From Raineyella fluvialis (GTDB taxonomy: Bacteria; Actinomycetota; Actinomycetes; Propionibacteriales; Propionibacteriaceae), in assembly GCF_009646095.1 (NCBI RefSeq), contig NZ_CP045725.1, forward strand, positions 2,232,001-2,296,000: a stretch of DNA of 64,000 nt, given 5' to 3'. Position 1 is the first letter of the stretch. Every line of letters begins with the position of its first letter. The notes beneath the pieces were generated by a model that saw only the letters and a list, made by a program, of their open reading frames with translations, did not search any database and had not been told where the DNA came from. Below are positions 14,492-18,395 of this stretch, piece by piece. Position numbers and translations under genes: made by a program.

Positions 14492-14606
14492 TCGTCAGGC
14501 CCGGGCCCGATCCGATGATTGACGGCGATCTCCCTAGCAGACCGTGGTTTCGCCGGAGGGGGAGGGGGCCCTGTGCCGGCACGTACGACGATGGCAGTAT
14601 GAAGCC

Positions 14607-16106
14607 ATGAAGCCGCGAGAGATTGGTATAACCGAACTCGTCCTTCGCGACGCGCACCAGAGCCTGATGGCGACGCGGATGGCCATGGAAGACATGGTCG
14701 ACGCCTGCGCTGACATCGACGCTGCCGGTTACTGGAGCGTGGAGTGCTGGGGCGGTGCAACGTACGACGCTTGCATCCGCTTCCTGAACGAGGACCCATG
14801 GGAGCGTCTGCGGACCTTCCGCACACTGATGCCCAACAGCCGCCTGCAGATGTTGCTCCGCGGCCAGAATCTGCTGGGCTACCGCCACTACGAGGACGCA
14901 GTGGTCGAGAGGTTCGTCGACAAGTCGGCGGAGAACGGCATGGACGTGTTCCGTGTCTTCGACGCGCTGAACGACCCGCGCAACCTCGAACACCCCATGC
15001 AGGCCGTGAAGAAGGCCGGCAAGCACGCCCAGGGCACGATCTGCTACACCGTCAGCCCCGTCCACAACACCGAGGACTACATCAAGCTGGCCGGCCGGCT
15101 GCTCGACATGGGTGCCGACTCGATCGCACTGAAGGACATGGCGGCTCTGCTCAAGCCCCAGCCCGCGTACGACATCGTCAAGGGCATCAAGGACACCTAC
15201 GGCCAGGACGTGCAGATCAACGTGCACTGCCACTCCACCACCGGTGTCACCCAGGTCGCCCTGATGAAGGCGATCGAGGCCGGTGCCGACGTCGTCGACA
15301 CCGCGATCAGCTCGATGTCCCTCGGCCCGGGCCACAACCCGACCGAGTCCGTGATCGAGATGCTCGACGGCACCCCGTACACCACGACGGTGGACCGGAC
15401 CAGGCTGAAGCCGATCCGCGACCACTTCGCCAAGGTCGCCCCCAAGTACAAGAAGTTCATGTCCGCGGTGACCGGTGTCAAGACCGACATCTTCGACTCG
15501 CAGATCCCCGGCGGAATGCTCTCCAACATGGAGTCGCAGCTGAAGGCCCAGGGTGCCGGAGACCGGATGGACGACGTCCTCGCCGAGGTGCCGAACGTCC
15601 GCAAGGACGCCGGTTACCCGCCGCTGGTGACCCCCTCCTCGCAGATCGTCGGGACCCAGGCCGTGTTCAACGTGCTGATGGGCAAGTACCACGTCCTCAC
15701 CGGTGAGTTCGCCGACCTGATGCTCGGCTACTACGGCGAGTGCCCGGCCGAGCGCAACCCCGAGGTCGTCGAGAAGGCTAAGGCCCAGACCAAGAAGGAG
15801 CCGATCACGCAGCGTCCGGCGGACCTGCTGGCGCCCGAGTGGGACGCGCTCGCCGAGCAGGCCAAGAGCCTCGAAGGCTTCAACGGCACCGAGGAGGACA
15901 TCCTCACCAACGCGATGTTCCCCCAGGTCGCCCCGAAGTTCTTCGCCGAGCGGTCCCAGGGCCCGCGCAACGTCGGGATGACCGACGAGCAGGTCGAGGA
16001 GGAGCGCCGCAAGGCAGCCGGCCTCGACAAGGCCCTGCACGAGCCCATCAAGTACAAGGTCACCATCAACGGCCAGTCCCGTTCGGTGTCCGTAGAGCCG
16101 GCCTGA
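14607..16106 (+). CDS. Methylmalonyl-CoA carboxytransferase 5S subunit
   Basis: Metal-dependent carboxytransferase subunit of transcarboxylase. It moves the carboxyl from carboxybiotin on the 1.3S subunit to pyruvate, giving oxaloacetate. 499 residues, near-identical in layout to the 505-residue Propionibacterium 5S protein. By alignment, metal ligands are D15 (LRDAHQS), H207 and H209 (HCHSTTG); K176 (SIALKDM) is the carbamylated lysine. HMGL-like TIM barrel first, then a conserved carboxylase domain. ATG 14607 gives the conserved [10 protein letters not shown] start. CAGTAT at 14595-14600 ends 6 bases upstream. First gene of a four-gene operon. Confidence 0.96.
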
Positions 16107-16116
16107 GGTGACGACG

Positions 16117-17682
16117 ATGCCTGAAACGAAGAAGATCCACGACATGGCCGAACGCCTCGCGACGCTCAGCCAGCGTCGCGAGGAGGCCCAGCTGGGCGGC
16201 GGCGCCTCACGGCTGGAGAAGCAGCGCGAGAAGGGCAAGATGACCGCGCGGGAGCGCGTGGACGCCCTGCTCGATCCGGGGACGTTCCAGGAGACCGGGA
16301 TGTTCCGGACCCACCGGACCACCACCTTCGGGATGGACACCGCCAAGGCTCCTGCCGACGGCGTGGTCACCGGCTCCGGTGCCGTCCTCGGCCGCCCGGT
16401 GCACGTCGCCTCCCAGGACTTCACCGTGATGGGTGGCTCCGCCGGTGAGACGCAGTCCAAGAAGGTCGTCGAGATGATGGAGGCATCGCTCTCCACCGGC
16501 ACGCCCTTCGTGTTCATCAACGATTCGGGCGGCGCCCGGGTCCAGGAGGGCATCGACTCGCTGTCCGGCTACGGCCAGGTGTTCTACTCGAACGTCCGGC
16601 TCTCCGGTGCGGTGCCGCAGATCTCGATCATCGCCGGCCCGTGCGCCGGTGGTGCCGCCTACTCTCCGGCCCTGACCGACTTCATCATCCAGACCCGCAA
16701 GGCCCACATGTTCATCACCGGGCCGGGCGTGATCTCGGAGGTGACCGGCGAGAAGGTCTCCCAGGACGACCTGGGTGGCGCCGACGCCCACATGACCCGC
16801 TCCGGGGTCAACCACTTCGTGGCGAACGACGACCAGGAGGCCGTGCTGATCGCCAAGAAACTGCTCAGCTTCCTGCCGCAGAACAACCTCTCCGAGCCGC
16901 CGCGGGTCAACCCGGACGACGTGGTGGAACCGAACGAGGCGCTGCGCGACATCGTCCCGGTCGAGGGCAAGAAGGGCTACGACGTCCGCGAGGTCATCCG
17001 TGGCATCGTCGACCACGCCGACTTCCTCGAGGTCCAGGCCGGCTACGCCCAGAACATCGTCGTCGGCTTCGCCCGGATCAACGGTTACTCCATCGGTGTG
17101 GTGGCGAACCAGCCGGGCGTGATGTCCGGGGTGCTGGACATCAACTCGTCCGACAAGGGATCGAAGTTCGTCCGGTTCTGCAACGCGTTCAACATCCCGC
17201 TGGTCACCCTCGTCGACGTGCCGGGCTTCCTGCCCGGTGTCGCCCAGGAGCACAACGGCATCATCCGCCACGGCGCGAAGATGCTGTACGCCTACTCCGC
17301 GGCGACCGTCCCGAAGATCACCGTCGTGATGCGCAAGGCGTACGGCGGCGCCTACCTGGCGATGTGCTCCAAGGACCTCGGTGCCGACCGCGTCTTCGCG
17401 TGGCCGACCGCCGAGATCGCGGTGATGGGCGCGGAGGGTGCGGCGAACATCGTCTTCAAGAAGGAGATCGCCGAGGCCGCCGACCCGGTCGAGCGGAAGG
17501 CTGAGCTCGTCGAGGAGTATCGCGAGACGTTCGCGACGCCGTACATGGCCGCCTCCCGCGGTCTGGTCGACGACATCATCGACCCCGCCGACACCCGTCG
17601 CGAGGTGGCGATGGCCCTGGAGATCCTCCGGACCAAGCGCCAGCTGCGCCCGGACAAGAAGCACGGCCTCGGGCCGGCGTGA
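16117..17682 (+). CDS. Methylmalonyl-CoA carboxytransferase 12S subunit
   Basis: Hexameric core of transcarboxylase. It takes the carboxyl from methylmalonyl-CoA onto biotin of the 1.3S subunit, releasing propionyl-CoA. 521 residues with two crotonase-type carboxyltransferase domains. Oxyanion-hole motifs include [14 protein letters not shown] and AYGGAYLAM, plus [12 protein letters not shown] and [14 protein letters not shown]. Ends KKHGLGPA, matching the Propionibacterium subunit (KKHGNFPC). ATG at 16117 is chosen because GAGGTGA lies six bases upstream; GTG at 16108 overlaps that site. It follows 5S by 10 bases. Confidence 0.96.
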
Positions 17683-17695
17683 TCGGGAGCTGACG

Positions 17696-18010
17696 ATGGC
17701 ACAGGACAACGAGATCGCCGCTCTCCAGCGGCAGATCGAACAGCTCACCGCTCGGCTCGCCGCGGCGGAGAAGCGGATCACGGACTTCGACCAGATGGCC
17801 GATGTCTTCGCCGAGGAGCACAAGGTCGACGAGGACACCATGATGGTCATCTCGGCCGCCGTGGCAGCCGTTCTCGGGCATCGGGCCAAGATCCGTCAGG
17901 TCCAGTTCCACGAGGGGTCGGGCTGGGTCTCCGCGGGCCGCATGGAGGTCCAGGACCACCGGAAGACCCAGGCGCGTCCGGCCGCCCAGAACCCGCTCAC
18001 GCTGCACTGA
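17696..18010 (+). CDS. Small unknown protein of the transcarboxylase operon, 104 residues
   Basis: Lies between the 12S and biotinyl 1.3S genes. The N-terminus (about 4-40) is a strong heptad coiled coil (EIAALQRQIEQLTARLAAAEKRI). The rest (HKVDEDTMMVISAAVAAVLGHRAKIRQVQF, then GSGWVSAGRMEVQDHR) resembles small accessory or tail segments found beside other biotin-dependent decarboxylases. Role is unknown. Position suggests an assembly or accessory subunit of transcarboxylase. ATG 17696 lies 13 bases after 12S, with GGGAGCTGACG upstream. Confidence 0.75.
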   Translation: MAQDNEIAALQRQIEQLTARLAAAEKRITDFDQMADVFAEEHKVDEDTMMVISAAVAAVLGHRAKIRQVQFHEGSGWVSAGRMEVQDHRKTQARPAAQNPLTLH

Positions 18011-18027: not shown

Positions 18028-18395
18028 ATGAGACTCAAGGTGACAGTCAACGGAACCCCGTACGACGTCGATGTCGAGGTCGAGCAGTCGCACCCCTCGC
18101 TCGGTGACCTGGGCGTGATCGGTGCGTACACCGGCCCCGCCCCACCGCGCCCGTGACGTCGACGATGCCGGCGGCCAGTGCGAACTCGATCGTCGCCCCG
18201 CTGGCCGGATCCGTCGCGCGGATCATGGTCGAGGAGGGCCAGACGATCACGGCGGGCCAGGTGCTCGTGGTGCTCGAGGCGATGAAGATGGAGACCGAGA
18301 TCACCGCGCCGTCGGACGGCACGGTCGGCTCGATCCTCGTCGAGGTCGGCGACGCCGTCCAGGGCGGCCAGGCCCTGATCTCCCTGGCCGACTAG
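18028..18395 (+). pseudogene. Transcarboxylase 1.3S biotinyl subunit, one-base frameshift
   Basis: Biotin carboxyl carrier linking 12S and 5S. From ATG 18028 (GAGGAGG upstream) the frame encodes the conserved start MRLKVTVNGTPYDVDVEVEQ but reaches TGA at about 18154 in the Pro/Ala linker. The biotinyl domain follows in another frame, with EAMKMETEI (biotin Lys at 18285-18287) and [13 protein letters not shown], to the stop at 18393-18395. One extra C in the run 18140-18143 would restore a single ~122-residue protein, the size of Propionibacterium 1.3S (123). Since transcarboxylase is central here, sequence error is the most likely cause. If real, the biotinyl part could only start from GTG 18153 or an internal ATG. 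Confidence 0.85.

Follow-up and report, generated by a model that had tools for sequence, protein, structure and literature searches.

Transcarboxylase operons contain a real, conserved fourth gene, which has mostly been overlooked in the literature that we examined. In the window, a 64,000-nucleotide stretch of the Raineyella fluvialis genome, this small gene occupies positions 17696..18010 of the plus strand and encodes a protein of 104 aa, as indicated by the open reading frame (ORF) call and by homologues in the same slot of other operons. The gene order is 5S, 12S, small gene and, downstream, the biotinyl domain of 1.3S. The 5S subunit gene (14607..16106, plus strand; NF008984, 978 bits, above the NCBIfam cut-off) is given here from the ATG of its conserved part, the listed ORF opening at 14544, and is followed by the 12S subunit gene (16108..17682, plus strand; PF01039, E 2.7e-196). 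The best solved-structure matches of the two products are the transcarboxylase subunits of Propionibacterium freudenreichii, 1rqb for 5S and 1on3 for 12S. The ATG of the small gene lies 13 nt past the 12S stop, which ends at 17682, and has GGGAG upstream of it; a gap of 17 nt leads to the start of 1.3S. The small gene is single-copy in the genome. The 104-residue protein that the earlier note placed between 12S and 1.3S is thus real, as judged by its ORF, its ribosome site and homologues in the slot of 75 of 75 operons.

The 1.3S gene of the window (18028-18395) is broken by a one-base shift, equal to one base missing in the Pro/Ala linker. Comparison of the frames with those of relatives shows an N-terminal part shortened to 42 aa by this shift (18028..18156, plus strand) and the biotinyl domain, with its EAMKMET motif, in the other frame (18153..18395, plus strand; PF00364, E 4.1e-21). 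1.3S is continuous in all 74 relatives with a biotinyl match, and the frameshift of the window is either a sequencing error or a real mutation.

A key question is whether the small gene is a regular component of such operons or a chance ORF in GC-rich DNA, a reading favored by the many spurious long ORFs that overlap here. Searches with the single window protein gave matches at E ≤ 0.001 in 101 of 147 Propionibacteriaceae genomes, distributed over 21 of its 29 genera; a search of this genome set with the 5S model gave matches in 110 genomes at E ≤ 1e-150. Both 5S and the small gene were found in 94 genomes, 5S only in 16, the small gene only in seven and neither in 30. The 80 family loci examined consist of sequence downstream of 5S or flanking the small gene. 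Of these, 77 contain 12S, which is truncated by a contig end in two, and the remaining 75 present a complete slot. Each of these 75 slots contains an ORF of 70-107 aa behind 12S. The slot ORFs were first chosen by position and were therefore tested against an independent profile of 56 other members, from which sequences identical to those of the family loci were excluded, while other members of the same bacterial family were kept. This profile matched 75 of 75 slot ORFs (worst E 4.4e-7); among 456 control ORFs of 60-130 aa from these loci, it matched none at E ≤ 0.05. Such a difference, together with the spread over the genera of the family, refutes the chance-ORF explanation, the probability of which we consider practically nil.

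The apparent absences are mostly divergent copies, because 11 of the 16 genomes scored as having 5S only do carry the slot ORF, which the single-protein search had missed. Among the remaining five, the locus is cut by the contig end in three (G007, G085 and G089), and no 12S is present in the 2.9 kb behind 5S in two (G078 and G100; L024 and L028). In the latter two, the search that had missed the 11 divergent copies gave no small-gene match at E ≤ 0.001; the pathway has perhaps been rearranged or dismantled there.

To extend the survey beyond the family, 84,980 species genomes were scanned for the pattern I[ASG]A[AG][VA][AS]A[YF][LMF]G, with confirmation by tblastn and with gene context ignored. 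The scan revealed 138 confirmed relatives, the best 80 of which were analyzed, and a further 290 pattern matches that are unconfirmed. Among these best 80 of 138 loci, several of which are the same genes as in the family loci, 12S lies upstream in 79, a 1.3S domain downstream in 79 and 5S upstream of 12S in 76; the five exceptional loci (L101, L103, L161, L179 and L180) sit at contig ends according to their coordinates. The hosts include Propionibacteriaceae, Corynebacterium, Nocardioides, Arsenicicoccus and Kineosphaera, as well as Bryobacter, Solibacter, Holophagaceae, Rhodoferax, Dechloromonas, Zoogloea and Tautonia, which we take to represent four phyla: Actinomycetota, Acidobacteriota, Pseudomonadota and Planctomycetota. 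In one scanned locus, from Corynebacterium lactis (L117, 2371-3911), 12S was matched as two overlapping pieces, perhaps owing to an insertion or a frameshift. Two alignments were used as profiles: A1, comprising 50 of the 75 family loci and the window, and A2, comprising 68 of the 80 scanned loci and the window, with near-duplicates left out by eye. Among 296 Actinomycetota genomes, the A1 profile matched three, and 5S exceeded the cut-off in the same three, including the genome of the window. Searching transcarboxylase operons for the gene had been proposed in the earlier note as a check, with absence from most of them as a refuting outcome; the gene is instead present in nearly all those examined, both in the complete family slots and in the scan, where 12S is its neighbor in all but one of the 80 loci analyzed.

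Comparison of the small gene with its two nearest relatives gave dN values of 0.17 and 0.19 versus a dS of 0.47, so relative to these the gene is under purifying selection; such selection is not visible against a third, more diverged relative (dN 0.42, dS 0.46).

The operon of the P. freudenreichii transcarboxylase (12S 1on3, 5S 1rqb, and 1.3S) also contains the small gene, where it has been read as the C-terminus of 12S. In the portion of PMC2909200 that we draw on, four coding sequences are reported, of which this one is taken as the C-terminal part of 12S, PFREUD_18850 being 98% similar to the C-terminal region of the Swiss-Prot entry Q8GBW6, and the enzyme is described with three subunits. 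That similarity favors the view that the small ORF is a C-terminal part of 12S split off in some strains, as does the arrangement in one locus (L076), where the small gene lies in frame five codons past the TGA of 12S. However, a stop codon separates the two genes, and the 12S frame is shared by only 23 of 76 small ORFs, the other 53 lying out of frame. The 12S of L076 differs from the crystallized 12S (1on3) at one of 523 residues, and the last residue of the 1on3 chain is the one encoded just before this TGA. A frame continuous with 12S was therefore not found, and the reading is largely refuted; we regard it as very improbable. Loss of the stop codon in an older sequence would yield the longer Q8GBW6 entry. 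In the titles and abstract openings of the open-licence papers listed, the product is not described as a separate subunit; earlier reports may exist elsewhere. The suggestion of a missed accessory subunit or assembly factor thus fits the presence of the gene in nearly all operons examined, but the gene was not wholly unnoticed, as the quoted part of PMC2909200 attests.

Two parts of the small protein were delimited. The first is a predicted N-terminal coiled coil of residues 2-41 (17699..17818, plus strand). AlphaFold modeled this region as a single helix spanning residues 2-41, with block-mean pLDDT values of 91, 97, 94 and 81 across residues 1-40, followed by a second helix at residues 46-59 (pLDDT 76-81) and a poorly predicted third helix; confidence is low past residue 60 (pLDDT 54-61), and the pTM is 0.38. 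In the window protein, one a/d register takes seven of the nine large hydrophobic residues of positions 1-34, a value reached in 22 of 5000 shuffles, and the same heptad test gave p ≤ 0.05 in 99 of the 129 distinct family members tested (of 134). The register and the modeled helix bear out the coiled coil that had been recognized in the earlier note. A search of solved structures with the single window protein yielded nothing significant; with the A1 profile, the best 60 of 130 matches were mostly coiled coils located on the N-terminal half. No clear membrane helix is present: the peak hydropathy is 1.3 in the window protein and does not exceed 1.6 in 125 of 134 distinct family members, the other nine lying slightly above, with a maximum of 1.77.

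The second part is a C-terminal module of residues 44-83 (17825..17944, plus strand), consisting of the helix VISAAVAAVLG, of the general type AISAAVAAYLG, and a segment with W77...G81-R82, and is delimited by conservation in A2 and by the alignments of relatives described below. Six positions are invariant in the 69 rows of A2 (I52, A54, V56, A58, G61 and W77), and four are nearly so (L17, E25, A55 and R82). The module is the best conserved part of the small protein because the invariant and near-invariant columns concentrate there, while the sequence outside it diverges fast. The strict form W-x-x-x-G-R occurs in 54 of 69 A2 rows, yet in only 15 of the 75 family loci, where the G is often replaced; W itself is found at that position in 69 of these 75 loci and is absent in six. 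Small proteins with the helix motif and without the W segment are encoded at L021, L022, L023, L027, L030 and L053. The earlier note, which had seen the coiled coil only, missed this better conserved and more informative module, which resembles MmdE and the tail of OadG.

Another important question concerns the affinity of the module. In the tables examined, the small protein and its relatives score below the cut-off of every Pfam and NCBIfam model. At lower scores, more A1 members match MmdE than any other NCBIfam family (five of 51, best E 2.4e-4). In A2, it is matched by seven of 69 members, two unrelated families matching more (eight); against Pfam, two coiled-coil families are matched by more A2 members than OAD_gamma, which ranks third (15 of 69; best E 0.0081). 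Matches of many members to DUF7310 and SlyX were taken as composition matches to the N-terminal helix and set aside. Among 16 relatives tabled individually, three match MmdE over a stretch that includes both the helix and the W segment, three match OadG models at their C-terminal end and ten match neither. These single-protein matches, of 12-16 bits versus curated cut-offs of 36-84, carry weight because they are placed at the right position, namely in the module and at the C-terminus of the model.

The alignments to MmdE (NF047904, 57 positions) in these three relatives are weak, with residues 36-83 placed on model positions 6-53, 34-78 on 11-55 and 30-74 on 7-51, and the module thus covers 45-48 of the 57 positions. 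The scores of the relatives (13-15 bits) do not reach the NF047904 cut-off (65 bits), and the window protein gives no match. MmdE, a small soluble subunit of a membrane pump, accompanies a biotin carrier and a carboxyltransferase of the 12S type. The operons described here hold 5S (76 of 80 scanned loci, from the best 80 of 138). The 57-position model, in contrast to the small protein, has no room for a long coiled coil. A survey of 100 Pseudomonadota genomes yielded three weak MmdE matches, none of them over the cut-off. The actinobacterial acyl-CoA carboxylase epsilon subunit was not among the 13 Pfam families listed for the window protein up to E 1, a list from which the HMMER filters drop very weak matches.

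The resemblance to OadG (PF04277, TIGR01195, NF003004) is concentrated in the C-terminal helix of the AAISAAV-x-x-Y type, which aligns with the small-protein module; in L157, for example, residues 38-61 fall on positions 61-84 of the 86 positions of NF003004. Comparison by hhalign with 23 OadG sequences (from 23 of 25 loci, L208 and L209 being left out, out of 40 genomes with matches) gave E 2e-4 over 19 columns ending in AISAAV-x-x-Y, and none of 100 column shuffles scored as high. On this similarity, the small-protein family carries a putative C-terminal amphipathic helix of the OadG type, which in OadG binds alpha. The cited sections of PMC7274780 state that deletion of OadG residues 61-84 severely cut the amount of co-purified alpha (the numbers are those of residues and do not correspond to model positions 61-84 of NF003004, although both lie at the C-terminus) and that the pumps for methylmalonyl-CoA and glutaconyl-CoA have delta subunits homologous to OadG. 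The same sections, with those of PMC2881705, describe the association domain of alpha as tightly bound by the gamma C-terminus. Two differences are evident. A membrane helix was found in 23 of 23 OadG sequences examined (peak hydropathy 2.4-3.0), whereas the small protein has a coiled coil instead, and an N-terminal transmembrane helix of this type was found neither in the window protein (1.3) nor in its family (maximum 1.77). Moreover, the W segment is lacking in the examined OadG sequences, which terminate shortly after the helix. The PF04277 gathering cut-off (27 bits) is not reached, the window protein being unlisted up to E 1. The small protein is not filed as MmdE or OadG because the cut-offs are not reached and, for OadG, the membrane helix is lacking.

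The same resemblance could also mark the gene as a relic of the delta or epsilon subunit of a sodium-pump decarboxylase, kept but dispensable for transcarboxylation, and the fast divergence outside the module, like the loss of W in six of 75 family members, would fit such a relic. A relic, however, should be lost often, whereas the gene has hosts in four phyla and six invariant positions in 69 rows, and dN is lower than dS against its two nearest relatives; the relic explanation is accordingly improbable in our estimation.

One additional piece of evidence comes from a natural fusion. In a distant Actinomycetota class, fused 5S-like proteins occur in six of the 36 genomes with a 5S-like match (L190 and L216-L220, all of one family, f33). 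The 5S match of the fused protein stops at residue 455, and the tail comprises a helix of the EEL-x-A type ending in LLG, followed by a variable linker and finally WAA-x-GR; the gene lies next to 12S-like and biotin-carrier sequences. An hhalign comparison of this tail with the small-protein module gave E 8.4e-6 over 50 columns covering both blocks, with none of 100 shuffles as high. A similar module is thus physically present on a 5S-like protein, being fused to its C-terminus. Compared with the small gene, the module of f33 is covalently attached, with no coiled coil between; the fused protein is also without the 5S hairpin described below, and its match to the 5S model is below the cut-off.

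The fusion bears on the possibility that the small protein is a transient chaperone, which assembles 12S, 5S and 1.3S or presents 1.3S to the biotin ligase and is absent from the finished enzyme. Co-encoding with the three subunits in the loci examined is compatible with such a function, for which a coiled coil and an amphipathic helix are suitable, and a description of the enzyme with three subunits (PMC2909200, in the part cited above) is what this possibility would lead one to expect. A module covalently attached to a 5S-like enzyme in one lineage, on the other hand, suits a permanent part, and OadG, which the module resembles, is a stable part of its complex according to the sections cited. 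We consider the chaperone unlikely, albeit the most serious of the alternatives.

We propose instead that the small protein is probably a fourth, structural subunit of transcarboxylase, a soluble counterpart of the MmdD/MmdE (delta/epsilon) and OadG (gamma) scaffolds, on the basis of gene conservation, operon linkage, module similarity and the fusion. The active enzyme has been rebuilt from three purified subunits, which counts against it, as do the low scores of the MmdE and OadG matches, the length of the OadG match (about 20 residues), the uncertain AlphaFold model past residue 60, the variable W segment of the family loci and the two genomes with 5S but no 12S behind it (G078 and G100). 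A candidate docking site is a predicted beta-hairpin at the C-terminus of 5S (16038..16103, plus strand), with like segments in other operons: 5S of these operons ends with Y-x-V-T-V-x-G...V-x-V, and 1.3S begins with a similar segment. Profile comparison of the 5S C-terminal and 1.3S N-terminal segments gave E 2.7e-4, with none of 100 shuffles as high; these profiles include a misread 5S row (L179) and some rows of 1.3S, such as L110, L119 and L130, that begin before the true start.

From these resemblances we infer the binding partners, stoichiometry and docking role of the small protein. Its C-terminal amphipathic helix and W...R segment would bind the beta-hairpins of the 5S C-terminus and the 1.3S N-terminus, and the two hairpins and the helix may together form a composite association domain comparable to the one made up by OadA and the OadG tail. 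In this way, 5S and its biotin carrier would remain attached to the 12S core. The coiled coil, which replaces the OadG membrane helix, may pair two modules or anchor them on the core. In the fused lineage, which has no 5S hairpin, this portion of the model would have to be different, with the strands supplied by the carrier.

As well as being a key enzyme of propionate fermentation, transcarboxylase serves as a classical model for the assembly of multienzyme complexes. The 1.3S structure was solved separately, and to our knowledge the attachment of 5S to 12S via 1.3S is a gap between separately solved subunits. A conserved fourth subunit, if true, would change reconstitution, structural work and heterologous expression, and the enzyme may express poorly in other hosts if just three genes are transferred. 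A shared docking module, if true, would tie transcarboxylase to the sodium-pump decarboxylases. At its widest, the proposal, to which we give an even chance, is that transcarboxylase is a four-subunit enzyme that evolved from or with these pumps, with 5S in place of beta and a coiled coil in place of the delta membrane anchor; the small protein would clamp 5S and 1.3S to the 12S core, and the reference 12S entry would merge two genes.
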